DNA from: a virus
Virus record (IMG/VR): IMGVR_UViG_3300049433_000104
Span: 1-51,234 of that record
Direction: 5' to 3' (one strand)
Length of the DNA: 51,234 nucleotides
Below, in pieces: positions 1,017 to 49,570 of the stretch. Each line of letters opens with the position of its first letter. The stretch's first letter is position 1. Both the position numbers and the translations under genes were made by a program. The notes beneath the pieces were generated by a model. That model was not told where the DNA came from. It did not search any database and was given only the letters and a program-made list of their open reading frames with translations.

Positions 1017-1892
1017 TCAGCCGATATCCCGCAATACCGCTTCGACCACCTTGCGTTCATCCGCCGTCAATGCCGCCTGCGGTGCAATGGGATCGCCGAC
1101 GTCGTAGCCCTGGATCGCAAGCCCGGCCTTGATGCAGGCGGCGAGATTATACTTCGCGAACGCTTCGTTGAGGCGCCACAGCCGGCGCTGCAGCTTCATC
1201 GCTTCGTCCCAGCGCTGCGCTTTACAGAGAGTATAGAGCTCGACGCTCTGGCGCGGAATAATGCAGGCCGGTCCCGCCATCCAGCCGACGCCCCCGATCA
1301 GCATCACCGCGGCCGGAATATGCGCCGACGCCGAGAATACGCTGATGGCATCGCCGCAGCGGTTCATGATCGACAGCAGCCGCCCGGTATTGGTCGAGGC
1401 GTCCTTGATGGCGACGATGCGCGGATGCGCGGCGAGCCTTGCGATCACGTCGAGCGAGAGATCGGAGCGCTGAAACTGCGGATTGGTGTAGATCACCACC
1501 GGGATGTCGACCGCGTCCGCAATGGCACGGAAGTAGGATTCGACTTGCGCGTCTTGAAGCGGAAAATACGCTTCAAGGATTGCGAGAATGCCGTCGGCAC
1601 CGAGCTTTTGATATGATTTCGCCTGCGCCACCGCGTCCGCGGTCGACGTCGAAGCAACGCCGGCGATAACGGGCACGCGCCGTTGCGCAGCTTCGATGGT
1701 CGTCTTCACCACCGCGGTGCGTTGCTCGGAATTCAGATAGGCGAACTCGCCGGTCGAGCCGAGCGGCGTCAAGCCGTGCACGCCGGCCTTGATCAGATCG
1801 TCGCAGAGCCGGCCGAGCACCTCGTTGCGGATGTGTCCGGCGGCATCAACGGGCGAGACCAGGTAGGGAAAGACGCCGTGAAAATCAGCCAT
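1017..1892 (-). CDS. DapA/NanA-family Schiff-base aldolase
   Basis: A 291-residue TIM-barrel lyase of the dihydrodipicolinate synthase / N-acetylneuraminate lyase superfamily, at the usual family length. Visible motifs are the GSTGE carboxylate-binding loop (residues 45-49), the catalytic tyrosine in YTNP (Tyr135) and the Schiff-base lysine in IKDAS (Lys163). The family condenses or cleaves pyruvate-type 2-oxo acids through a lysine imine in the cytoplasm. True biosynthetic DapA is usually near lysine genes. This copy lies between a molybdopterin hydroxylase and a divergent FAD oxidoreductase, so a catabolic aldolase or dehydratase role is as likely. Substrate is not assignable from sequence. 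The start ATG is 61 bp from the divergent ATG at 1954. Confidence 0.88.
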
Positions 1893-9183: not shown

Positions 9184-10698
9184 TCAGGCTGCGCGGCGGT
9201 GCGCAGTTCGTTTCTTGACGGCCGCCCGGCGCGCTGCGGGCTTGCGTGGCGCGCTGCGTTTCGGGGGGATGGGTTTGGCGGCCGGTTTGCGGGCGCGCGC
9301 CAGTGGCGGCGGCAGGGGCGGCGGCAGGGGCGGCAAAGCCGCTGCCGGAATACTCGTCGCGGCGGCTGTCCGGCGCGCTTTCCACCACGGCCAGACGTAG
9401 CGCCATGCCACATAGGCGAGCACGGCCAGCAGCACGATGCCGCCGGCCAGCATCGACCATTGCATCAGGCTCCAACCCTGCTTGACGCCGTGGGTTACGG
9501 CGCCGCCACCGGCCGCAGCCACAGCGATCTTTGCGAGGTCAGCGCCGCCGCCCTTCGCGGCCGGCGTCTCAGCTGCGAACTTCTTCGCCTCAACAAGCGC
9601 CTTGTCCCATCGGTTGATCAGGCCCTGCCGCAGATTCGGCCGGCCGGGCGCCACCTGGTCCTCGTAATGTTCACGCGCGGCGCGCAGCTTGTCGAGCAGT
9701 TCACCGGGCACGGCCTTTGACAGCGCGTCGCGGGTTTCGCGACCGACCGAACCATCGACGCCGACGCCAAGCGCAATCTGGAGGATCTTCGCCGCCCCTC
9801 CCGGCCCACGGTTGAAAACGCAATCGCGCAGGTAAAATTCGACGCCCGCATTCGTTGTCCAGCCTGCCGCCGCGTCCGTATACTTGACCATGTATTCGAC
9901 GGCCGAAGCTTCCGCTTCCGCGAACTGGCCGGCTTGAATGAGGGATCGAAGGTGTGACGCCTGCTCGGGGTGATATCGGTCGTTGATTCCGGCGACTTCA
10001 TAGGAGCCGCCACCGTCATTGGCCGGAAGCTTGTAAACCGCGAGCCTGCCCTGCGCGTCGCGCCGCGCCTCGAATGATAGGATCACGCGGCCCATGCGGG
10101 TCCGCCGATCGGTGGTATCGATCGGCTTTGCTGTCACCGTTGCGGCTACCGGCACGGCTTCCACCGGTGCCGCTCCGAAGATTGGCGGCATTGACTGCGG
10201 CTTGCGGCCGCCGTTGTCGACAAATTCGAAATGCATCCAGTCCGGACGGTTGACGTACCAGCCGCCCCACATGGCACCCTGCCGGCAGAACGCGTCCACG
10301 ATGAACGCCGGCATTGTCCCCTTTTTTACGCCAAGGGCATTGTTCAGCGCGTTCAGGTCGATCGCCGCAGCATATGCATGGTTCGACCATTTCATGGTAG
10401 ATCCCCGCACGTAACGAGAGTTATAAGCGCCGAAATATTTTGATGCGCCGGAAGCGTCGACTTTGGCTTGGTCGCGTCCGCAATAATCCCAAATCTCATT
10501 GAGCGCGGCGAGCAGCGCGGGCGCGCATTTGCGATGAAACAGAATCGATTTGATGACTTTTGTTCCGTGCTCGTCGGTATAGGTCATGCGAAATGGCGGC
10601 ACCACCGGCACCATTTGCGCTGTGATCTGGCCTTTGCCCGGATCGCCGTAAAAGGCGTTCCGAGACTCCTGATTGTCTTTCGGCCACGTCGTCGGCAT
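9184..10698 (-). CDS. Endolysin: M15 peptidase plus muramidase/peptidoglycan-binding-like region, membrane-tethered
   Basis: 504 residues, long for an endolysin. Residues 20-160 form a VanY/M15-type peptidase with Arg98, SNHAYAAAIDLN (zinc ligands His107 and Asp114) and WMHFEF (His156), which cuts peptide stems. Residues 205-330 resemble a GH108-type muramidase end with its binding helices: a possible catalytic Glu210 in ILSFEA, then FNRGPGGAAKILQ and VDGSVGRETRDAL. A single transmembrane helix lies at about 413-436, followed by a proline-rich stretch (PPLPPPLPPPL) and a basic tail of KPAAK-type repeats. The topology suggests a wall enzyme held at the inner membrane until holin action. The peptidase call is firm; the muramidase call is tentative. 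Confidence 0.8.
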   Translation of the reverse strand: MPTTWPKDNQESRNAFYGDPGKGQITAQMVPVVPPFRMTYTDEHGTKVIKSILFHRKCAPALLAALNEIWDYCGRDQAKVDASGASKYFGAYNSRYVRGSTMKWSNHAYAAAIDLNALNNALGVKKGTMPAFIVDAFCRQGAMWGGWYVNRPDWMHFEFVDNGGRKPQSMPPIFGAAPVEAVPVAATVTAKPIDTTDRRTRMGRVILSFEARRDAQGRLAVYKLPANDGGGSYEVAGINDRYHPEQASHLRSLIQAGQFAEAEASAVEYMVKYTDAAAGWTTNAGVEFYLRDCVFNRGPGGAAKILQIALGVGVDGSVGRETRDALSKAVPGELLDKLRAAREHYEDQVAPGRPNLRQGLINRWDKALVEAKKFAAETPAAKGGGADLAKIAVAAAGGGAVTHGVKQGWSLMQWSMLAGGIVLLAVLAYVAWRYVWPWWKARRTAAATSIPAAALPPLPPPLPPPLARARKPAAKPIPPKRSAPRKPAARRAAVKKRTAHRRAA

Positions 10699-35279: not shown

Positions 35280-38153
35280 CTAGAACGGTTCATCACCAAC
35301 CCCCGAATGGTGGTGGTGGTCGTGTGGCGGTCCGTGCTCCGATTGATGACTGGCGACTTCGGGCATGTCGTGCAAAGCCACATCGACATAGACGCGAATT
35401 CGCTTCGTATCGTCGCGCTTCAATTTCTTCTTCATGGTCAGCCCGAATCGCGTTTCGAACATCTTTGCGGTGCCGTTGACTTCGCACCAGAGTTTATAGG
35501 CGTCGTACATCGCGCGGCCGGTGACGCCTGGACCGCCAGGATCAGCCTTCACATGCGCTTCGACGAATTGGCCGCACGGGTCCATTTCAGCGAAGTGGTC
35601 GGCTGTTGTCTTAAGCACGTCGTCGGAAATGATCAGGCCGCTGTTCAGAAAATCGAGCGCGCCGGCGATCAGCCAGTTAAGAATGCCCGATCCCTCGGCA
35701 ACAATTCCCGAGACGACATCTTCGAAGTCGCGGTGCTTTTCCTCTGCGAGCGTCACGCTCCATTCGACGATGATCAGGCGGCGCTTCATGCCGCCGTCCG
35801 CGCCGTCGAATTTTGGTTCGCCGTTGCCGCTCATGTGCGGTTTCGCAGTCGGCTTGAATTCGAAATAGCCTTTGTACATCGTGCGCACTGGCCAGCGCTC
35901 GCCGCCGGTCAGCTTCTTGATGGTTTCCATCTTAAGCGGCGCATCCTTTGGCAATTCGGCAATGCGCAGGTATCGCTTGGCGTAGCAGCGCGCGATGTCC
36001 GGCGTCGGTGCGCTCGGGTTGTTCTGCACTTGGCCGGAAACCGTCTCAGCAGGTACGCCAGCCGACAGCCCGTCGCCGAACACGCGCGCCAGCACTTCAA
36101 GGTAAACACTCTTGCCGTTGCCGCCCGTGCCGGTGTGGAACATCACGCGCTGAACCGGCTGCGCTGTAAGGCTCATTCCCGAATACTGCTGGACCGTGCG
36201 GCGCTTCTTTGCCTCCGGCTGAAACAGATCGAGGAAGACGTTGAACTCTTTTGCTGTCGCCTTCGGATCGTAGGCGAAGGGGATCACAGCGGTTAGCATG
36301 TCGTCGCGATCGTGGCCGCGTTTGGCGCGAAGTTTATATTGAACGCGCCCGTTCTGGCGATCGACCAGCAGCCGCTTGCCCTCAGGGTCGGGATCTTCGT
36401 CGTCTATAATCGGAATGAACGTCAGGGTGTGCGTCAACGTTGCCACTTTGAGCGGGTCGGCGTTGAACGCGTCCGGATGCCGGCGCAAATGCGGCGCGGC
36501 ACATTTGAGCATCGCGGCAATACGTCCCGCGTTTTTGGTGGAGACGCCCCATTTGCGACGATTGGTTTTTCGCGTCGACAGCGCTGCGCGCGCTTTCTTT
36601 GCAGCTGTAACCAGTTCGGTCAGCGTTTCGCATCGCGCCCGTTCCTCTGTGCTGTCCGAATCCGGGTCTAAATCTTTCAATTCCTTTGCGGCGGCGTCGC
36701 CAGCCGAGACCGCGCGGGCTTCCGGCGGCGTGAAATCGATATAACCGGCTTCTTGTTTGATCAGGTCGCCGACGCGCTGACCGATCAGATGCGCCAATGC
36801 TTCGCCGCCCGCCAAATCCCAATGGGTGCCTGTCCAGGCGAGCATTTGTCCGGCCGGAACGTCGTCCTCTTGCCGCACCAACAGGTCGCGGCCGAAATAC
36901 GCTATCAGCCGTTGCCCGTTGTCGACATCCGATTGATCAAGGCCTGCGCAAAAGCGAAACGTATCGTCGCTGACCGTATCGTCAGGCGGCGGCGCTTCAT
37001 CGTCCGCGTCTTTGGCTTCGCCCTTTTCTGTTTTTGCGAGGGTTTGAGGGTCGCTTTTTTCCCCTGAGGGGGAACGGGGGAGAGGGTCGGAAGAAGAAGA
37101 ATCAGCCGCAGTAGGGGAAGAAGATGTGCGGACGGCCGCTTTACGCGGCCGACTTTCTCGATACGCCGCTGCGCGGCGTATCTCGTCTAAGTCGCGGGGC
37201 TGCGCTTTCCCTTTGCGGAACCCGGAGTCGATCGTGGCGCGCACCCCGCGCAGACCATCATCCTTGATCAAGCCGCAAACTGCCGCGGCATCCTCTAGCG
37301 CCGCGCGCACGAAGCCTTCGTGTAGCGCGCCGGCGGCCACCAGCTGCGCTAATTTCAGCGCGGCGATATTGAGCGCGTCGTTTCGACCGCCCGTCTGTGA
37401 CGCTCTCAAGGCCTGCAGCTCGGCATCGAGCGCGGCCAGGCCGTATTTGCGAACAGCTTCGTCACCGGCCGCGATGCTCGAGTCGCCGGCCGGCGGCCGC
37501 TTTACCGCAGCCGCGGCACGCGCGCCGATGCCCGATCCTTCATCGACATCGCGCCGATCGGCAAATTGACCACGGCGGAAGATAAGGTCGAGAAGCGCCG
37601 GCGGCGCGATCGCCGGCGCGGTGTCATGCGCCACGCCCCAGTGATAGGTCTTGCCGTCTTTGCGGAGCGACGGCGGCGCAATCACATAACCACCGTCACC
37701 GCGCACGTCGACGCGCTTGACGATATTGGCGCGGTTGCCTGGCGCTGCACCTTCGGCCGGTAATGCGAAGTATAGATGCACGCCGCCGCGGGGAGTATTG
37801 GCAAACAGCGTCGGCGGCAGCTTCGCGCCGATTTGCTTCTCCAGCTCGAGCTGCAGCGCGGCCGCTTCGTATACCTCGCCGGTTTTCTTATCCTCGCCGG
37901 CGTCGACGTCGACCACGAAGGCGCCGATCGCTTTGCCGGTCGGCAAGCCGATCATGGCGTTCGGCCAACGCGTCCACCACTCGCGGACCTGGTCGGGATC
38001 ACAGCTGGCCTTTTTTACGCCGCCAGAATTCGGGATCAGAGCGCCGTCGGCGTCCCTGTCACCTTTCACCAGCGGTTGCTTGGTGTCAGGGTGGCACGGA
38101 AACACCGGCCAGTTACGGGCGGCGAACGCTAGGGCATTTTGCAACATGCTCAT
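35280..38153 (-). CDS. Primase-polymerase / SF3 helicase replication protein
   Basis: 957 residues. Residues 1-195 are a bifunctional primase-polymerase domain: WPVFPC, GGVKKASCD, the metal-binding VDVDAG (Asp82, Asp84), and TPRGGVHLYF (His126). A low-complexity acidic/serine linker lies near 340-395. The C-terminal half is a D5/P4-alpha-type helicase with Walker A GTGGNGKS (675-682) and a later CYAKRYLRIAELPKD segment. Such fusions prime and unwind at the phage origin. The gene is the last of the early operon, overlapping its predecessor as ATGA, and faces the iteron cluster just beyond its stop. Confidence 0.9.
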   Translation of the reverse strand: MSMLQNALAFAARNWPVFPCHPDTKQPLVKGDRDADGALIPNSGGVKKASCDPDQVREWWTRWPNAMIGLPTGKAIGAFVVDVDAGEDKKTGEVYEAAALQLELEKQIGAKLPPTLFANTPRGGVHLYFALPAEGAAPGNRANIVKRVDVRGDGGYVIAPPSLRKDGKTYHWGVAHDTAPAIAPPALLDLIFRRGQFADRRDVDEGSGIGARAAAAVKRPPAGDSSIAAGDEAVRKYGLAALDAELQALRASQTGGRNDALNIAALKLAQLVAAGALHEGFVRAALEDAAAVCGLIKDDGLRGVRATIDSGFRKGKAQPRDLDEIRRAAAYRESRPRKAAVRTSSSPTAADSSSSDPLPRSPSGEKSDPQTLAKTEKGEAKDADDEAPPPDDTVSDDTFRFCAGLDQSDVDNGQRLIAYFGRDLLVRQEDDVPAGQMLAWTGTHWDLAGGEALAHLIGQRVGDLIKQEAGYIDFTPPEARAVSAGDAAAKELKDLDPDSDSTEERARCETLTELVTAAKKARAALSTRKTNRRKWGVSTKNAGRIAAMLKCAAPHLRRHPDAFNADPLKVATLTHTLTFIPIIDDEDPDPEGKRLLVDRQNGRVQYKLRAKRGHDRDDMLTAVIPFAYDPKATAKEFNVFLDLFQPEAKKRRTVQQYSGMSLTAQPVQRVMFHTGTGGNGKSVYLEVLARVFGDGLSAGVPAETVSGQVQNNPSAPTPDIARCYAKRYLRIAELPKDAPLKMETIKKLTGGERWPVRTMYKGYFEFKPTAKPHMSGNGEPKFDGADGGMKRRLIIVEWSVTLAEEKHRDFEDVVSGIVAEGSGILNWLIAGALDFLNSGLIISDDVLKTTADHFAEMDPCGQFVEAHVKADPGGPGVTGRAMYDAYKLWCEVNGTAKMFETRFGLTMKKKLKRDDTKRIRVYVDVALHDMPEVASHQSEHGPPHDHHHHSGVGDEPF

Positions 38154-41688: not shown

Positions 41689-42764
41689 GCCGCCTTCCCC
41701 GTAAATTCGAGTTCATCGCCCCAGCTGATCCAGCCTGGACGCGGCCGGCGCGCCTGCAGCTCGAGATACGGCCCTTCGGTAAGCCGCTCGATCCGCTCCA
41801 GTGCTTCGTCGGGTTTGCGGGAATGCTCCATCACCGGCGCGATGATCAGCTGCCGCACGTCGGCATAAAGCCGTTTCGGCTTGCCCTTGGTCGCCATCCA
41901 ACAATCTTCTGGATTAGCGCGCGTCCAGAAGCCCTGGCCCATGTGCCATCCTTCGCCGGAAGGATTTTGCTTCACCCATGTGAACGCAGTGGTCACATGT
42001 CGCAAACCGTAATGCGCCAAAAGATCGAGCGCATCCTGCGGACACCAGTCGACCATCCACATGTAAAAAGCCGCGTCGTCGTCCAGCAGTTCGCCGACAG
42101 GAAGGTTCTTTATTTTGGCCACCTCTTCCGTCTTGTAATGAATGTTGGCGCTTCGGCCGTCGCCGAGCGGCGAGCGCGTCAGAAACTTCCACTGCGGATC
42201 GGACGACGCAGACTTGGCGCGAAACCCGGACAGGGCGAGCCGCCCGAGATCTTCAACGGTGCCGCCGTTCATCGTGCGCGCGGCGTGATCGTCACGGCGC
42301 TGCTGCTGCTGAGCGAATTTTCCCGCCTGGTCGACCGGATCGACCACGATCGACTTGCCTGCGGCCATCTTCGTTCGCATGCCGGCGATCGCAGCTTCAA
42401 ACCCATCCGGCTGCATTGCCGCCGCCTGCTGCGCTTTCGCTGACAGCTTCCTATCGACGCCGATGTCTTTCAACGTGGCAGGCGGCAATCCGCCGATCGT
42501 TTCGACCAGTGTTTTAGGTCTGCCTTTACCATCCTGCAGCAGGCCGGAAGCCCTTGCTTCCTGCAGCAACTCGCCCAACCGACGTTCGACGCGCATCTGA
42601 AATTCCGTCGCATCGGCCAGCAAGGCGCGATCGCGTATCTGGCGCGCGTGCAACTTGACGTGCTCGATTTCATCGCGGCTGGCCAGGACGCGGTCGACTC
42701 GAGTCGCCTGCAGGGCTTCCCCGAGCGCCACCAGCGCGCGATCGTATTGCGCCAGCAACATCAT
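41685..42764 (-). CDS. MT-A70-family methyltransferase homologue with altered catalytic motif
   Basis: 359 residues from MMLLAQYDRALVALGEAL; ATG 42764 overlaps the upstream stop as ATGA, preferred over ATG 42791. The N-terminal 150 residues are a helical DUF3102/ParB-associated-like region (ARQIRDRALLADATEFQMRV). The MT-A70 domain follows: HYKTEEVAKIKNLPVGELLD, AFYMWMVDWCPQDAL, FTWVKQNPSGEGWHMG and IIAPVMEHSRKPDEALERIE. Where adenine methyltransferases have DPPW, this protein has SSDPQWKF (189-192). The second proline shapes the active site, so activity may be lost or changed. An active enzyme would make N6-methyladenine. Confidence 0.82.
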   Translation of the reverse strand: MMLLAQYDRALVALGEALQATRVDRVLASRDEIEHVKLHARQIRDRALLADATEFQMRVERRLGELLQEARASGLLQDGKGRPKTLVETIGGLPPATLKDIGVDRKLSAKAQQAAAMQPDGFEAAIAGMRTKMAAGKSIVVDPVDQAGKFAQQQQRRDDHAARTMNGGTVEDLGRLALSGFRAKSASSDPQWKFLTRSPLGDGRSANIHYKTEEVAKIKNLPVGELLDDDAAFYMWMVDWCPQDALDLLAHYGLRHVTTAFTWVKQNPSGEGWHMGQGFWTRANPEDCWMATKGKPKRLYADVRQLIIAPVMEHSRKPDEALERIERLTEGPYLELQARRPRPGWISWGDELEFTGKAA

Positions 42765-43408
42765 GCGGAGATTTCGCTGGTCTCTCGGCACCGCCGCGGC
42801 CGCCGGAAAATACCGTGAGCGGTTGCAATCGCGCTGACATCACCAGGCTCGATCAACCAGTCAACTGCGATTTCTACATAAGGCGTACCCTCGGCAACCG
42901 CTGCCAGAATCGACGCAACGCCGCTCTCATCCAATTCCAAACGCCGCATGAGATGCGTTAAATCTTTTCGATAGGCCTTCTTACGCTCCTTGTTCTCCGG
43001 ACGCTGAGCGTAGGCCTTCTTACGCTCCTTGTTCTCCGGACGCTGAGCGTAGGCCTTCTTACGCTCCTTGTTCTCCGGACGCTGAGCGTAGGCCTTCTGA
43101 CGCTCCTTGTTCTCCGGACGCTGAGCGTAGGCCTTCTGACGCTCCTTGTTCTCCGGACGCTGAGCGTAGGCCTTCTGACGCTCCTTGTTCTCCGCGTACC
43201 AACGCTGAGCGTAGGCCTTCTTACGCTCCTTGTTCTCCGGACGCTGAGCGTAGGCCTTCTGACGCTCCTTGTTCTCCGGACGCTGAGCGTAGGCCTTCTT
43301 ACGCTCCTTGTTCTCCGGACGCTGAGCGTAGGCCTTCTTACGCTCCTTGTTCTCCGCGTACCAACGCTGAGCGTAGGCCTTCTTACGCTCCTTGTCTTTA
43401 TACGGCAT
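42761..43408 (-). CDS. Tandem 13-residue repeat protein
   Basis: 215 residues from MPYKDKERKKAYAQRW, with GGGGGAG seven bases before ATG 43408. Residues 9-142 are ten in-frame copies of K/Q-KAYAQRPENKER; two copies carry WYAENKER in place of PENKER (15 residues). The repeats are charged and helix-prone with no cysteines. A non-repeat end follows: KDLTHLMRRLELDESGVASI and TPYVEIAVDWLIEPGD. The MPYKD-KE-KAY-R start occurs in short phage proteins near HNH genes, but here one unit has been amplified. Function is unknown; nucleic-acid or protein binding through the basic helix is a guess. Confidence 0.75.
   Translation of the reverse strand: MPYKDKERKKAYAQRWYAENKERKKAYAQRPENKERKKAYAQRPENKERQKAYAQRPENKERKKAYAQRWYAENKERQKAYAQRPENKERQKAYAQRPENKERQKAYAQRPENKERKKAYAQRPENKERKKAYAQRPENKERKKAYRKDLTHLMRRLELDESGVASILAAVAEGTPYVEIAVDWLIEPGDVSAIATAHGIFRRPRRCRETSEISA
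42983..43384. repeat. Ten tandem coding repeats (eight of 39 bp, two of 45 bp)
   Basis: On the + strand the unit begins TAGGCCTTCT and contains ACGCTCCTTGTTCTC. Starts at 42972, 43011, 43050, 43089, 43128 and 43167 show the exact 39-bp period. Units are nearly identical at DNA level, differing mainly at one codon (Lys/Gln) and the two 6-bp insertions, which points to recent expansion by slippage or recombination. Confidence 0.95.
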
Positions 43409-43664
43409 GGCCACTCCCCCTGTTCTCTCGGATGAAGGCACAGGCGAGCTGATAGCCGGGGATGCTCAAGGCGAAGAACGGACCCTCGAGCGACGGCGCG
43501 TCACACGCCTGCCGGTACCAGACCTCGACGACGCCGCGGCGCCGCAGTTCTTTGACGTCGCCGCGCTGGCGCGCGGCGAGCGTTACGCGCCCGCTTGCGC
43601 CGGCACGTAAGAGCGCGATCTCGTAGCGGTTCAGACGACGGCGACGGGCGGAACCACCGTTCAC
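43398..43664 (-). CDS. Hypothetical basic early protein
   Basis: 88 residues, arginine-rich. YEIALLRAGASGRVTLAARQ and GDVKELRRRGVVEVWY suggest a small winged-helix-like fold, but no family can be named. Its start overlaps the Gp37/Gp68-type stop (ATGA) and its end overlaps the repeat-protein start by 11 bp. Confidence 0.6.
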   Translation of the reverse strand: MNGGSARRRRLNRYEIALLRAGASGRVTLAARQRGDVKELRRRGVVEVWYRQACDAPSLEGPFFALSIPGYQLACAFIRENRGSGHAV

Positions 43665-45311: not shown

Positions 45312-45643
45312 GTTCGCTGCGCTCCGCTGGTTGCGAGTTCGGTGGACTCGTGACGCAACAAGGGAACGAATGCCTTCATGACAGCGCGCCACCGGCGGGC
45401 GCGTTTGCCGGTCGAGATCGCGGTGCGCATCATTGCGACCACCATCAACCGCGTCGGATCGGCGATCGCGTTGCAGCACGGATCGTGGCCGATCATCTGC
45501 AGCTCTAAGAGAATGCGTTCCGCTTCATGTCCAAGCTTCGCGCCGTCACTGCGGCCGTCGAGATAGCTTGTCGAAGCGGCGACGGCTTGCGCGGCGAGCA
45601 GGTTCGCAACTTCGGGCGCAGTAAAGTCCTTATGCTGCGGCAT
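45308..45643 (-). CDS. Hypothetical early protein
   Basis: 111 residues from MPQHKDFTAPEVANLLAAQA. It is mainly helical (ERILLELQMIGHDPCCNAIA, then RLMVVAMMRTAISTGKRARR) with a basic C-terminus. The start overlaps the end of the membrane-protein gene (45630) by 14 bp. No family is recognised. Confidence 0.6.
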   Translation of the reverse strand: MPQHKDFTAPEVANLLAAQAVAASTSYLDGRSDGAKLGHEAERILLELQMIGHDPCCNAIADPTRLMVVAMMRTAISTGKRARRWRAVMKAFVPLLRHESTELATSGAQRT

Positions 45644-45953
45644 CGCCGCCACGCCAGAAATTGCGGATGGAGGCCAGCCACGAGGGCAGTATCGGCCGGC
45701 CTCCATCCGCGTCCGGTCGGAGGGCAAGTCCGGCGGAATGGTTTAAGGGTCTAGTGGCGAATGATCGGCGCAGAGGATCGCGCTCAAAATCGCGCAGCTG
45801 CGCATCTGTCAGGCGAGGCACATCGCCGAAGGGGTGAAAGAACGGATCAGCCTGCGGGATGCTACGACGCAGGCTGATCCTCACGGCGCACGCAATGCCA
45901 AGCGCCGTGAATGCGAGAAGAACGCCAACTGTGATTTTCAGCGCAACAATCAT
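45630..45953 (-). CDS. Small membrane protein
   Basis: 107 residues with one N-terminal transmembrane segment (VALKITVGVLLAFTALGIAC) followed by a basic patch (RISLRRS) and a soluble, proline-rich end. The orientation suggests a cytoplasmic C-terminus. Its start overlaps the stop of 45950-46351 as ATGA. As an early membrane protein it may take part in exclusion or host takeover; that is inference. Confidence 0.62.
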   Translation of the reverse strand: MIVALKITVGVLLAFTALGIACAVRISLRRSIPQADPFFHPFGDVPRLTDAQLRDFERDPLRRSFATRPLNHSAGLALRPDADGGRPILPSWLASIRNFWRGGDAAA

Positions 45954-46351
45954 TCAGCGATCTCCAGTTGGAGCGCTTCGATTGCGCGCTGGCTTTCGAC
46001 CAGCTGTTTACGAGCCTTGTTGACATCGAGCTGCCGACGATACCGGACGATCCAATCTTCCTTGCTGCCGGCGACGACAACGAACAGCACGTCACGGCCG
46101 AACCGGGACCGCAGAAGCTTGACCAACTGTTTGCTATTTTCGACCCTGTCGCCGGACAGCAGTTTTTGACAGTTGCCAAGCGGCTCATCGATCAGGATCG
46201 CCAAGTGCTGCGCGGCCTTCTTCGTCGGCAGCAAGCTCTTCACTTTTTGCATGACCGGGGAAATCTGATTCCTATTCCGGAAATTCGGTTTCCGGGTTTG
46301 GGAACGCGCAGATTTGGTTGCACTGGCGCGAGTTGCTAGTTTCCCGTGCAT
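45950..46351 (-). CDS. Putative DNA-binding early regulator
   Basis: 133 residues from MHGKLATRASATKSARSQTR. The core PTKKAAQHLAILIDEPLGNC and QKLLSGDRVENSKQLVKLLR resembles the KTA-x-L helix-turn-helix of small Bradyrhizobium phage regulators. The C-terminal QLVESQRAIEALQLEIAE is coiled-coil-like. As second gene after the Cro-like protein it sits where lambda-type phages encode CII-like regulators. ATG 46252 (MQKVKSLLP) is an alternative start. Confidence 0.55.
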   Translation of the reverse strand: MHGKLATRASATKSARSQTRKPNFRNRNQISPVMQKVKSLLPTKKAAQHLAILIDEPLGNCQKLLSGDRVENSKQLVKLLRSRFGRDVLFVVVAGSKEDWIVRYRRQLDVNKARKQLVESQRAIEALQLEIAE

Positions 46352-46557
46352 GTCCCGGTCCCCTGCATTTGTTCGCCGTGAGCTTGGAAAATCGCCTGGA
46401 CTTCGCGGGTCAGGGCCATGCGCCCCGGTCCACGGCTTGGCGGCCCTTCGGTTTCCCACCGATGCGCCGTGCTTTGATCGACACCGAAGCGCGCCCCAAA
46501 CGCCGACTGGCTTTCACCGGTCAGTTCGCGCGCCCGACGAATCATTTGTGCGTCCAT
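46336..46557 (-). CDS. Cro-like XRE-family regulator
   Basis: 73 residues. IRRARELTGESQSAFGARFG then VDQSTAHRWETEG is a canonical XRE helix-turn-helix, followed by a short tail, the size expected for Cro. It is the first gene of the leftward early operon, transcribed away from the CI-like gene from a promoter covered by operators O1 to O3. No Shine-Dalgarno precedes ATG 46557. The -10 hexamer ends 7 bases before it, so the transcript is probably leaderless. Confidence 0.82.
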   Translation of the reverse strand: MDAQMIRRARELTGESQSAFGARFGVDQSTAHRWETEGPPSRGPGRMALTREVQAIFQAHGEQMQGTGTCTGN

Positions 46558-46563
46558 GACCGA

Positions 46564-46591
46564 ACTATGCGCAACGCATAGTGATGGTCAA
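46564..46591 (-). promoter_or_regulatory. Leftward early promoter
   Basis: Minus-strand TTGACC (46591-46586) and CATAGT (46569-46564), spaced 16 bp, match sigma70 boxes. Operator O1 covers the -10 and spacer. The predicted start lies at or next to the Cro ATG. Confidence 0.65.
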
Positions 46592-46625
46592 TGCCTAACG
46601 CATACTATCCCTATGCATATTGCAT
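46567..46625. promoter_or_regulatory. Operators O1, O2 and O3 (Cro/CI side)
   Basis: Three 13-bp sites fit ATGCG-N3-CGCAT. O1 is ATGCGCAACGCAT (46567-46579, perfect arms). O2 is ATGCCTAACGCAT (46591-46603, one mismatch). O3 is ATGCATATTGCAT (46613-46625, a palindrome with the variant arm ATGCA). Centres are 24 and 22 bp apart, about two helical turns. O3 abuts the CI-like start, allowing autoregulation. Confidence 0.7.
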
Positions 46626-46627
46626 TT

Positions 46628-47242
46628 ATGACGGAACCTCACGAACGACTGCAAAAGGCCCGCGAAGAAGCGGGATATGCCGATGCAACCGCCGCGGCCG
46701 AAGCCATGGGGGTAAAGCTTCCCACCTATTGGGGACATGAGAACGGCAACCGCGGCCTAGCGCGAAGCGCCAGCCGGTACGCCGCTTTCTTTCACGTCTC
46801 GCTTGATTGGCTGTTGACCGGAAAGGGAACGCCGCGACGTACCAAATCGCCGGCAGAGAAACATGCCAGCGTGCCCCTGGTCGGCTATGTTGGTGCGGGT
46901 GCGGCCGCCAACTTTTTTTCGCAAGACAGCGGACATCTGGACGAAGTTCCGGCACCAGGAGGATCTTCGGAAGCAACCGTGGCCGTCGAAATTAGAGGTG
47001 ACAGTCTCGGGTCATTTTTCGATCGCTGGCTGGTCTTTTATGACGATGTCCGTCGACCAGTCACGTCCGATCTGCTGAACAAGTTATGCGTCGTCGGACT
47101 TGATGATGGGCGAATTCTGATCAAGAAAATACAACGCAGCAAAACGCGCGGGCACTACCATTTGTTGTCGCAGACCGAAGAACCTATCTTCGACGTTGCA
47201 ATTGATTGGGCGGCACTGGTGAAAAGCATGGTTCCCCGGTGA
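46628..47242 (+). CDS. CI-like repressor (XRE plus S24/LexA-type C-terminal domain)
   Basis: 204 residues from MTEPHERLQKAREEAGYADA. The helix-turn-helix is DATAAAEAMGVKLPTYWGHE, with the SLDWLLTGKG that ends the XRE domain of many repressors. The C-terminal domain has VPLVGYVGAGA (Ala-Gly cleavage region), the nucleophile in EIRGDSLG (Ser126) and a lysine in RILIKKI (Lys166/167). LexA/CI-type self-cleavage under RecA is therefore expected, making the prophage SOS-inducible. The start overlaps O3 and there is no Shine-Dalgarno, so a leaderless transcript is likely. Earlier in-frame ATGs (46556, 46613) are less likely. Confidence 0.85.
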   Translation: MTEPHERLQKAREEAGYADATAAAEAMGVKLPTYWGHENGNRGLARSASRYAAFFHVSLDWLLTGKGTPRRTKSPAEKHASVPLVGYVGAGAAANFFSQDSGHLDEVPAPGGSSEATVAVEIRGDSLGSFFDRWLVFYDDVRRPVTSDLLNKLCVVGLDDGRILIKKIQRSKTRGHYHLLSQTEEPIFDVAIDWAALVKSMVPR

Positions 47243-47248
47243 CTTAGT

Positions 47249-47302
47249 GTGCGAAACGCATATCCCATGCGTTTCGAATTGACTTAACTATGCGTTACGA
47301 AT
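47249..47302. promoter_or_regulatory. Operators O4, O5 and O6 (right side of repressor)
   Basis: Three 13-bp sites of the same family follow the repressor gene: GTGCGAAACGCAT (47249-47261), ATGCGTTTCGAAT (47267-47279) and ATGCGTTACGAAT (47290-47302). Each differs from ATGCG-N3-CGCAT at one arm base. O4 and O5 together form a perfect 10-bp inverted repeat (47252-47261, 47267-47276). O6 lies inside the spacer of the rightward promoter. Confidence 0.68.
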
Positions 47303-47307
47303 AGTTT
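47279..47307 (+). promoter_or_regulatory. Rightward early promoter
   Basis: TTGACT (47279-47284) is a good -35 box. The -10 is ATAGTT/TAGTTT (47301-47307) at 16-17 bp. Operator O6 occupies the spacer, so the repressor should block it. It reads into the three small genes before the integrase. Confidence 0.6.
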
Positions 47308-47330
47308 TCTCCCGTCGAAAACACGGGAGA
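47308..47330 (+). promoter_or_regulatory. Hairpin over the ribosome-binding site of the first rightward gene
   Basis: TCTCCCGT (47308-47315) pairs perfectly with ACGGGAGA (47323-47330), with a 7-nt loop. The right arm contains the GGGAGA Shine-Dalgarno for ATG 47336. It could lower translation, or bind an early regulator. Confidence 0.5.
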
Positions 47331-47335
47331 GATTC

Positions 47336-47623
47336 ATGCGCCGTTCCAGCTGCAACCGCCTGCCTGGCATTCGCTTCCACGCCCTGCCGGCGAACGCCAC
47401 CGTCCCGGCATTCATCGATAGCGCGCTGATCAAGCCCCGCGCCAGCCTGCAGGGACAAACCGCAACCCGCCAGATGGCCGACGATATGCGTCAGGCCGGC
47501 CACCGCGAAGGCGGCGTCACGCGCGACGATCTCAGCCGCATGGGCTGGACGCCGATGCAGATCGACACTCACGCCGCGGCCGCCAACATTCAGGCGCAGG
47601 CGATGTCCGGACTGACACTGTGA
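47336..47623 (+). CDS. Hypothetical rightward early protein
   Basis: 95 residues, MRRSSCNRLPGIRFHALPAN, with a GGGAGA Shine-Dalgarno. The product is basic with helical QGQTATRQMADDMRQAG. No family is recognised. It is the first gene transcribed from the operator-covered rightward promoter and overlaps the next start by 4 bp. Confidence 0.7.
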   Translation: MRRSSCNRLPGIRFHALPANATVPAFIDSALIKPRASLQGQTATRQMADDMRQAGHREGGVTRDDLSRMGWTPMQIDTHAAAANIQAQAMSGLTL

Positions 47624-47865
47624 TGAATCGGCGCGGTCACTTGCGTTTGTTGGACGGCCCGCTGGTCGACACGCAATCCGAACGCGACTCGTTGGTCGAG
47701 TCCATGGCCAACGATCTAGTTCACGCCGGCACCGCGAACGACGAAGCCGCCGCCATCCGATCGCTACGAAAACGCAGTTACGCGCCGGCCGACATCGTGA
47801 CGCTGGTCGACGACGCGCGCAACCTTGCACTTTGCGGAATCGTGTCCGCCGAAATGAGCAGCTGA
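47620..47865 (+). CDS. Hypothetical rightward early protein
   Basis: 81 residues from MMNRRGHLRLLDGPLVDTQS, with helices EAAAIRSLRKRSYAPADIV and TLVDDARNLALCGIVSAE. No family is recognised. The ATG overlaps the upstream stop (ATGA). Confidence 0.68.
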   Translation: MMNRRGHLRLLDGPLVDTQSERDSLVESMANDLVHAGTANDEAAAIRSLRKRSYAPADIVTLVDDARNLALCGIVSAEMSS

Positions 47866-47866
47866 C

Positions 47867-48067
47867 ATGTCAGCGGCCGCGCCCCAAACGTTCACCGAAG
47901 AATGGCTGATCGGTGCGATCGGCCTGATCTCGGAAGTGATCGTCGAACATGGCGCGAAATACGGCCCTTGGCTTGATCTGCTGGAACGCGAGCTGGCCGA
48001 CATCAAGCGGCATGACGATCCGGTCAGCCGCGCCCGGCGCCACCTTGAACGACGGCCAGCTGCCTGA
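47867..48067 (+). CDS. Hypothetical small rightward early protein
   Basis: 66 residues from MSAAAPQTFTEEWLIGAIGL, acidic-helical then basic (DDPVSRARRHLERRPAA). It starts one base after the previous stop and its 3' end overlaps the convergent integrase by 44 bp. An excisionase could be this small, but no winged-helix pattern is evident. Confidence 0.6.
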   Translation: MSAAAPQTFTEEWLIGAIGLISEVIVEHGAKYGPWLDLLERELADIKRHDDPVSRARRHLERRPAA

Positions 48068-49385
48068 CGGCGTATTCCCCCGGCATCCCCGGCGCCAGCG
48101 CGATCATCTGAATATATTTCAGCTTCAACCGTAGACCGTGACCGTCGCCATACTTCGGCTTGCCGGTATTGTGGCCCATCAACTCGTCTTTGAGTTCTTC
48201 CGGCGTCTCGACTTCCCGCAACCGATCCTTGAAGCCGTGGCGCAGCGAATAAGCCGTGTGCAGATCGGACGGCTTCATGCCGTTCTCTTTGAGATATTTG
48301 TTCACGGCGGCCGAGAACGCATCGCCCTTGTCGAAATAACGCGGGAAACCATTCGGGAAGGCGCGCATCGCATCGAGCGAAATACCGATCAGCGGGATAT
48401 CTCGATATGACCAGCCGGTTTTTAATACGCGATCATCATCCCGCACCTGAATGTGCGGGATCTCCGCATCGAGCAGGATCCTATGCGGCTGGAGGTTGAT
48501 GATTTCAGACGGCCGCGCACCGGTGTTGACCATGACATGCACTGCGGCGCGTTCTTCATCGTTCATGCCATCGAGCGCACCAGGCGCTAGGATCACATTG
48601 ACGATGAAAGCGGCGTCGAACGGCTTGCGCGATCGCGACGTGCCGCCCTCCAGCCGCGTGCCGGCAAACACCGGATCAAGCCGCAGACGGTGTCGCTTGC
48701 TGACGGCGCGCAACATGCCGGTGATATGGGTTATGTTTTTATTAGCGGTGCCTTCCTGCAGGCCTTCGTCCAGCACCCGTTCTTCCCATCGGTCGCTGTA
48801 CTTAAGCGCGTCGTCCCGCGTCAGTTCGCCGATCGCTTTGTCGCCGACAACCTCGATCAGAATTTCAACGGCGCGCTTTTTAGCGGACTCCCATTTGCGC
48901 AGCTGGTTCGGCGAGAATTTTGCGATCGTGGTTTTCTTCGCGATCCTGTATTCGGCGAACAGTCCGGAAAGCTTGATGATCGGCAACGCCACGCCGCCAA
49001 GCACGGCGGCCGTCGTCGCGGCATCATGCCGGCGATCGCCCTTGGCCAGCTCGTCGACTCGCCGAATGATATCGGCCGCAGCTTCCGTTACCGCGGCTTC
49101 GATCGGCTTATACTCGAGTCCAAGGGCGCGCGCGCGTTTGCGGGCTTCGTCAACGTCGATCGACGCCTGCAGCGTGCCGGCACCGGCGCCGACACGCCAT
49201 GAAGCTTCCAGATCGAGATTGAGCCGATCGGCAACCCTGCCGGCGCGGACTCCAGCTCGATCGCCGGCAGCTCTGATCTTGGTGGAAAGCTTGATCACGC
49301 CGCGCGGGTCAACCGCGGCGAACTCTGCCGGCACCCGCCGCACAAAGTACCAGAGACCGTTCCGTTTGGTTAAACGCTCTGCCAC
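48024..49385 (-). CDS. Tyrosine integrase
   Basis: 453 residues with GTG start at 49385. The N-terminal arm-binding part begins MAERLTKRNGLWYFVRRVP. A SAM-like core-binding helix set covers about 135-235. The catalytic domain has Arg291 (NTGARPSEIINL), YSLRH (Arg382, with tyrosine in the first box-II place), Gly-His404-405 (LMGHNTG) and a tyrosine nucleophile candidate in KPKYGDG (Tyr412). It lies next to tRNA-Glu with attR between. The GTTGGACA pair at 49396-49419 lies directly upstream, so the integrase may repress its own gene. Confidence 0.92.
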   Translation of the reverse strand: MAERLTKRNGLWYFVRRVPAEFAAVDPRGVIKLSTKIRAAGDRAGVRAGRVADRLNLDLEASWRVGAGAGTLQASIDVDEARKRARALGLEYKPIEAAVTEAAADIIRRVDELAKGDRRHDAATTAAVLGGVALPIIKLSGLFAEYRIAKKTTIAKFSPNQLRKWESAKKRAVEILIEVVGDKAIGELTRDDALKYSDRWEERVLDEGLQEGTANKNITHITGMLRAVSKRHRLRLDPVFAGTRLEGGTSRSRKPFDAAFIVNVILAPGALDGMNDEERAAVHVMVNTGARPSEIINLQPHRILLDAEIPHIQVRDDDRVLKTGWSYRDIPLIGISLDAMRAFPNGFPRYFDKGDAFSAAVNKYLKENGMKPSDLHTAYSLRHGFKDRLREVETPEELKDELMGHNTGKPKYGDGHGLRLKLKYIQMIALAPGMPGEYAVRQLAVVQGGAGRG

Positions 49386-49495: not shown

Positions 49496-49509
49496 TGGCG
49501 CTCCCTAGG
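49496..49509. other. attR core within tRNA-Glu 3' end
   Basis: TGGCGCTCCCTAGG, identical to attL at 6588-6601. It spans the CCA, discriminator, acceptor 3' strand and the edge of the T-stem, so integration leaves the tRNA intact. Confidence 0.85.
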
Positions 49510-49570
49510 GGAATCGAACCCCTGTTTCAGCCTTGAGAGGGCCGCGTCCTAACCGCTAGACGAAGGGAGC
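49496..49570 (-). tRNA. tRNA-Glu(CTC)
   Basis: Read on the minus strand it begins GCTCCCTTCGTCTAGCGG and folds as a cloverleaf. The acceptor stem is GCTCCCT/AGGGAGC with discriminator G and encoded CCA. The anticodon stem is CGGCC/GGCTG around the loop CTCTCAA, giving anticodon CTC. The T-arm is GGGGTTCGATTCCCC. It is the integration target of the prophage. Confidence 0.96.

Follow-up and report, generated by a model that had tools for sequence, protein, structure and literature searches.

The repressor gene of the phage DNA analysed here is flanked on both sides by operators of a single motif, and we conclude, with a probability of about 0.85, that it lies in the immunity region of a temperate phage, an OL/OR region of the lambda type. 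The operator sites, their conservation in relatives, their link to the DNA-binding domain of the repressor, the predicted fold of this protein and its intact cleavage residues were all computed in this work. Binding, repression and induction we infer by analogy with lambda. The CI-like repressor, presumably as a dimer, would bind OR1–OR3, which separate its gene from the divergent Cro-like gene, as well as OL1–OL3 just 3′ of its own gene. In a lysogen, occupancy of OR1 and OR2 would shut off pR, the promoter of the leftward lytic operon, while occupancy of OL1 and OL2 would shut off pL, the promoter of a small rightward operon. Occupancy of OR3 would limit the repressor's own synthesis, and DNA damage would lead to RecA-assisted self-cleavage at Ala90-Gly91 and prophage induction. 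Repression of pR and pL would follow from the positions of the operators, and autoregulation via OR3 is plausible because the place of this site is fixed.

Operators and early promoters in the window

The window, i.e. the whole 51,234-nt stretch of DNA that was analysed, is one complete virus record (IMG/VR IMGVR_UViG_3300049433_000104). Its genes include those for a phage portal, a terminase, a tail tube and a primase, and the integrase gene is adjoined by a tRNA-Glu(ctc) at 49496-49570, past which lies a pseudouridine synthase gene that is probably bacterial. As phage genes and an integrase are followed by this tRNA and then by the probably bacterial gene, the record most likely represents a prophage that includes host DNA on the right. 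The tRNA-Glu(ctc) is a likely attachment site, and the prophage is perhaps integrated there. A gene of the dihydrodipicolinate synthase family at the left end (1017-1892, minus strand) is unusual in phage and may be host flank or cargo. A unit of the ENKER(K/Q)KAYAQRP type recurs many times in a minus-strand ORF at 42761-43441. Features of the immunity region are collected in Table 1. The Cro-like protein gave weak helix-turn-helix (HTH) matches, to HTH_92 (E 1.4e-5, under the curated cut-off) and to the transcriptional regulator family PHROG_8 (E 0.0055).

Table 1. Features of the putative immunity region and adjoining genes, from left to right; promoters are placed by conservation and operator mismatches are counted against ATGCG-N3-CGCAT.
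Feature	Coordinates	Strand	Description
Cro-like HTH gene	46336..46557	-	73 aa; start codon 46557; first gene of leftward (lytic) operon
pR (putative)	46564..46591	-	-35 TTGACC (46591-46586); -10 around CATAGT (46569-46564)
OR1 (O1)	46567..46579		ATGCGCAACGCAT; 0 mismatches; within pR spacer; position kept in 13/13 relatives
OR2 (O2)	46591..46603		ATGCCTAACGCAT; 1 mismatch; overlaps pR -35; conserved CC in -35-proximal half-site
OR3 (O3)	46613..46625		ATGCATATTGCAT; 2 mismatches; directly 5′ of repressor start codon
CI-like repressor gene	46628..47242	+	204 aa; HTH domain (about 1-66) and LexA/lambda CI-type C-terminal domain
OL3 (O4)	47249..47261		GTGCGAAACGCAT; 1 mismatch; weak third right site
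OL2 (O5)	47267..47279		ATGCGTTTCGAAT; 1 mismatch; overlaps pL -35
pL (putative)	47279..47307	+	-35 TTGACT (47279-47284); -10 near TAGTTT (47302-47307)
OL1 (O6)	47290..47302		ATGCGTTACGAAT; 1 mismatch; within pL spacer
Stem-loop around pL start	47306..47332	+	3′ arm holds Shine-Dalgarno sequence of next gene
First pL-operon gene	47336..47623	+	95 aa; no Pfam or PHROG match
Second pL-operon ORF	47620..47865	+	function not assigned by Pfam or PHROG search
Third pL-operon ORF	47867..48067	+	function not assigned by Pfam or PHROG search
Tyrosine-recombinase integrase gene	48024..49385	-	convergent with pL operon; PHROG_1 integrase 9e-21; weak Phage_integrase match

Sites were sought with the 13-bp pattern ATGCG-N3-CGCAT, allowing up to two mismatches. 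All six 13-bp sites listed in a preliminary description of this DNA are present where it placed them. The pattern alone was not enriched, with 42 matches in the whole window compared to a shuffle mean of 59.9, and clustering and conservation were therefore used as the signal. Three or more matches inside 60 bp were found at just two places in the 51-kb window, namely the two clusters flanking the repressor gene, and when the 42 hits were placed at random, 19 of 20,000 trials gave two clusters of this kind. A matrix was also made from 32 distinct sites found in relatives, the window itself contributing none, and was used to score the window. All six sites were within the top seven hits; OR3 had the top score of the whole window, and the site at 47249 scored clearly lowest among the six (12.6, rank 7), under the shuffle mean maximum of 15.2. 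A search for further copies, as had been proposed, revealed no third cluster of three sites within 60 bp; it did return one strong lone match, ATTCGAAATGCAT at 10224-10236 (rank 3 by the same matrix), within a leftward ORF (9184-10698) with a peptidase M15 domain. This lone site may be due to chance.

A plain scan of positions 45500-48500 returned pR as the sole consensus promoter, with 0.8 expected by chance. The promoters were assigned because TTGAC is conserved beside OR2 and OL2 in relatives, and not on the strength of the consensus scan. GTCAA at pR keeps its distance to the repressor start codon, to within one base, in all 13 of the relatives found in the first round, and in the wider family the right operator pair, present in 67 loci, encloses TTGAC in 50 of them, compared to 2.8% of random segments. 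With promoters placed in this way, the OR cluster lies over pR between the repressor gene and the divergent cro-like gene, and the OL cluster, which has the same motif, lies beyond the other end of the repressor gene and over another early promoter. The proposal of divergent sigma70-like promoters at the clusters therefore holds in part: the conserved TTGAC favours it, while the consensus scan was no better than chance, and only the left cluster is situated between divergent genes, the right one lying over a single rightward promoter. No position could be assigned to pRM in the window.

The repressor start was placed at 46628 because four relatives (L003 and L010-L012) carry an in-frame stop codon directly before the equivalent ATG; starts at 46556 and 46613 were rejected for the same reason. 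OR3 spans −15 to −3 relative to this start and leaves no room for a Shine-Dalgarno sequence, so that transcripts from pRM probably have no leader or a very short one. The repressor messages of lambda and BAA2326 are described as having no Shine-Dalgarno sequence (PMC5977221). The Cro-like message of the window also probably has little or no leader.

Conservation of the two clusters

The 13 first-round viral contigs encode repressors 65–75% identical to that of the window. In every one of them the offsets of the left trio relative to the start codon of the repressor are −61, −37 and −15, give or take one base, and OR3 ends 2–3 bp short of this codon. These contigs and loci L017-L019 make up 16 close relatives, or 17 close loci when the window is included. 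A matrix made solely from left-hand sites recovered a right pair, with a spacing of 23–24 bp, in each of the 16 relatives. All of these pairs outscored the best of 100 shuffles, mostly by far and in L001 narrowly (5.5 vs 4.0). The right pair begins within 75 bp of the repressor stop codon in eight of these relatives and 250–600 bp past it, mostly beyond an inserted gene, in the other eight. The middle left site is weak in L018 and L019. A full third right site is present in the window, where it is weak, and in L002, i.e. in two of the 17 close loci; L017 has a half-site and the remaining 14 have none. Two sets of three sites, as first described, are thus true of the window and not a rule of the family.

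A profile search yielded 80 viral loci, to which three genome loci, three phage loci and the window were added to give 87 tested loci. For each locus a palindromic motif was picked, with the downstream side unseen, from the 150 bp surrounding the start of the repressor gene, and up to 2.5 kb of downstream sequence was then scanned for the best pair of the chosen motif. A downstream pair scoring at least 24 was found in 67 of the 87 loci, or in 56 of 76 groups once near-identical repressors were merged, and in none of 86 left-hand control regions. This cut-off was chosen after the scores had been seen, the largest left-control score being 21.3. As a positive control, the script recovered the annotated lambda OL1/OL2 with a score of 33.7; with phage 16-3 it found the correct OL place with a score of 18.4, under the threshold. 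Positive loci from named records include Ruegeria phage 45A6, Microcystis phage vB_MweS-yong2 and a Methylobacterium genome. The operator motifs were wholly different between loci, examples being CGGTA-N4-TACCG, AGCACA-N3-TGTGCT, AAAGCATTGCTTT and TATGCC-N5-GGCATA.

No right pair above the threshold was found in 20 of the 87 loci, perhaps in part owing to early contig ends or a misjudged repressor start. L029 and L037, with 23.3 each, were just under the cut-off and were counted as misses, and three of the six named-record loci (L015, L016 and Mesorhizobium phage L084) were also missed. L039-L041 were counted as hits with a right pair that is oddly placed relative to TTGAC. The distance between the OL and OR clusters ranged from 718 to 3031 bp in the 67 positive loci. 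In the window the clusters are about 680 bp apart because no genes sit between the repressor gene and OL, and a compact form is already known from 16-3. Compactness, which had been put forward as a special feature of this switch, therefore loses that standing.

The presence of sites on both sides raises the possibility that repressor bound at OL and OR forms a higher oligomer and loops out its own gene, with OL3–OR3 pairing bringing about autoregulation. Lambda is described as forming such a loop between two three-operator sets that are separated by about 2.3 kb (PMC5880393). The window carries three sites on each side, and its repressor has a predicted fold that matches lambda CI and 186 CI. 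However, looping is not required by the sequence, as repression of pL sufficiently explains the right-hand sites. Moreover, a full OL3 is rare among the close loci, the distance between clusters spans 718–3031 bp across the 67 loci, and 933W is described as having no OL3. We therefore regard looping as a possibility that falls somewhat short of even odds.

The repressor and the specificity of its operators

The repressor matched the transcriptional repressor family PHROG_4 (1e-21), as well as the Pfam S24 family with an E value of 0.00056 that is under Pfam's own cut-off. A sequence search of the PDB gave nothing useful (a single hit, E 0.071), and for this reason a predicted fold was needed. 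The AlphaFold2 model (pLDDT 91.8) matched 186 CI, lambda CI and LexA in a full-length structure comparison. The model of the N-terminal domain was closest to ImmR, P22 C2 and 434 Cro, and that of the C-terminal domain was closest to lambda CI and LexA. The PHROG_4 match and the fold matches both indicate an HTH domain joined to a LexA/S24-like C-terminal domain. Ala90, Gly91, Ser126 and Lys166 were invariant across 44 aligned repressor sequences. Given their placement as in the LexA/lambda CI family, we take Ala90-Gly91 to be the cleavage site and Ser126/Lys166 to be the catalytic pair; the repressor is apparently self-cleaving at Ala90-Gly91. The original reading of the locus, in which the gene of a CI-like repressor has operators at either end that lie over early promoters in the lambda topology, is supported by the sites, their conservation and this fold.

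The relationship between operators and repressor domains was analysed with 37 repressors (666 pairs), these being the ones among the 44 aligned sequences that passed the cut-off. Operator similarity was correlated with identity of the N-terminal domain (partial rank correlation 0.63), and none of 500 permutations reached this value. No correlation was observed with C-terminal identity (−0.09, with 467 of 500 permutations as high). Individual pairs illustrate the same relationship. Shared operators go with 72% N-terminal and 39% C-terminal identity in L010 and L039; the operators of L010 and L024 are dissimilar, with C-terminal domains that are 71% identical and N-terminal domains that are 26% identical. 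Similarly, L069/L070, L018/L024 and L023/L027 have C-terminal domains that are alike, and N-terminal domains and operators that are unlike. In these three pairs both flanks appear to change together across a conserved middle. As operator similarity tracks the N-terminal domain, both clusters are tied to the DNA-binding domain of the repressor itself. This result argues against the sites mainly serving another regulator, such as a host factor or the Cro-like protein encoded at 46336-46557. Operators are usually common to Cro and CI proteins, and the test covered the repressor only; even so, the permutation result makes such a regulator an unlikely main user of the sites.

The two clusters differ in one conserved detail. 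In all 16 close relatives (L001-L013 and L017-L019) the OR2 half-site beside the pR −35 element carries CC (GTCAATGCC), and this CC is retained despite a different operator sequence, e.g. in GTCAACACC and GTCAATACC. The matching half of OL2 is without CC when one locus per group is considered. Across the family, GTCAA-N2/3-CC was found at OR in 26 of the 53 groups having GTCAA there, compared to 2 of 43 at OL. A weak OR2 that needs the help of OR1 would explain the conserved CC.

A stem-loop that includes the Shine-Dalgarno sequence of the first pL gene was a second recurrent element. Leader stems scoring at least 7.5 were found in 39 of 56 groups, compared to 64 of 286 other leaders bearing a Shine-Dalgarno sequence and 639 of 3360 random segments. 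Unlike a DNA-binding dyad, the stem-loop that follows pL has a loop length that varies between loci. In the window its 5′ arm starts at or before the expected transcription start. A literature search found no paper on a Shine-Dalgarno hairpin in prophage early leaders, which is not proof of absence. Taken with the covariation data, these elements would fit a broader scheme that we put forward tentatively, with the odds clearly against it. Immunity specificity in this repressor clade would reside in a three-part lock of OR, DNA-binding domain and OL that changes together, the C-terminal domain staying or being swapped separately. Two invariable elements would serve for fine-tuning, namely an OR2 half-site that is defective on purpose and the hairpin, which would mask the ribosome binding site of the first pL gene as a second, RNA-level brake.

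The 10-bp inverted repeat noted earlier in O4/O5 is exact (47252-47261 and 47267-47276), and the region folds with a z of −2.57; nevertheless, a reading in which the right cluster acts not as operators but as a hairpin, in RNA or DNA, located where the repressor gene ends, for example a terminator, is highly improbable and was rejected, because no T-run follows the repeat, close relatives without the repeat keep OL1/OL2 at 23–24 bp, and left and right sites share one motif even in loci where this motif is wholly different.

Relation to known immunity regions

Read as an OL/OR immunity region, this locus indicates that a large and little-studied group of temperate phages follows the lambda plan despite widely diversified operators. 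The dozens of natural repressor–operator pairs should be useful for orthogonal switches, and immunity groups become predictable from sequence. We found no described operators for this clade in the literature, most subscription papers lying outside that search.

The order of elements in the window is the mirror image of the lambda immunity region (OL/pL - rexB rexA cI - pRM/OR/pR - cro). Shared with lambda are the arrangement OL2-TTGAC-OL1 at pL, a LexA-like self-cleaving repressor fold and three sites on each side. Unlike in lambda, the clusters of the window are separated by about 680 bp rather than 2.3 kb, its sites are 13 bp rather than 17 bp in length, and int is convergent with the pL operon. 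Relatives may carry genes between the repressor gene and OL, the place of rexAB in lambda. These gap genes often start at the repressor stop codon (L001, L003, L004, L007, L014, L025 and L033) and are therefore probably expressed in the lysogen. Several look by eye like lipoproteins or membrane proteins. Among ten gap genes compared with PHROGs, eight had no match and two matched only families of unknown function; none of the ten matched defence-system models (PADLOC).

Phage 933W is described as having a lambdoid OR and no OL3, as in most of the close relatives; it differs in that no cooperative binding is reported there, and in that the window has an OL3-like site. In the immB region of the telomere phages phiKO2 and N15, as in the window, three OR sites lie between the repressor gene and cro and two OL sites lie opposite, the phiKO2 sites having been proven by gel shift; unlike the window, the repressors of these phages have no self-cleavage residues and OL precedes the replication gene repA (PMC4997575).

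Rhizobium phage 16-3 immC (DQ500118) resembles the window in that the repressor gene alone lies between OL (35629-35657) and OR (36498-36537), both of which directly flank it. According to the GenBank annotation, one OL site of 16-3 is in the pL spacer and one is at the −35 element, again as in the window. 16-3 differs in having two sites per side and a different operator sequence, and BLASTP returned no alignment between its C repressor and the repressor of the window at E≤100, which gives no sign of homology to the 16-3 C-repressor family. A 2025 paper describes phiLM21-like prophages as having neither lambda nor 16-3 operators, noting that the sequences may differ (PMC12429752). When the same script was applied to phiLM21 (L089), it returned a candidate two-sided operator set with a score of 36.2, the control score being 10.8. 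The candidate operators, of the TGTAGCGATTATCGC type, flank the repressor gene around 9.9–11.3 kb, with a lipoprotein-like gene in the gap. This candidate set bears on the puzzle, printed in that paper, of the missing operators in phiLM21-like prophages.
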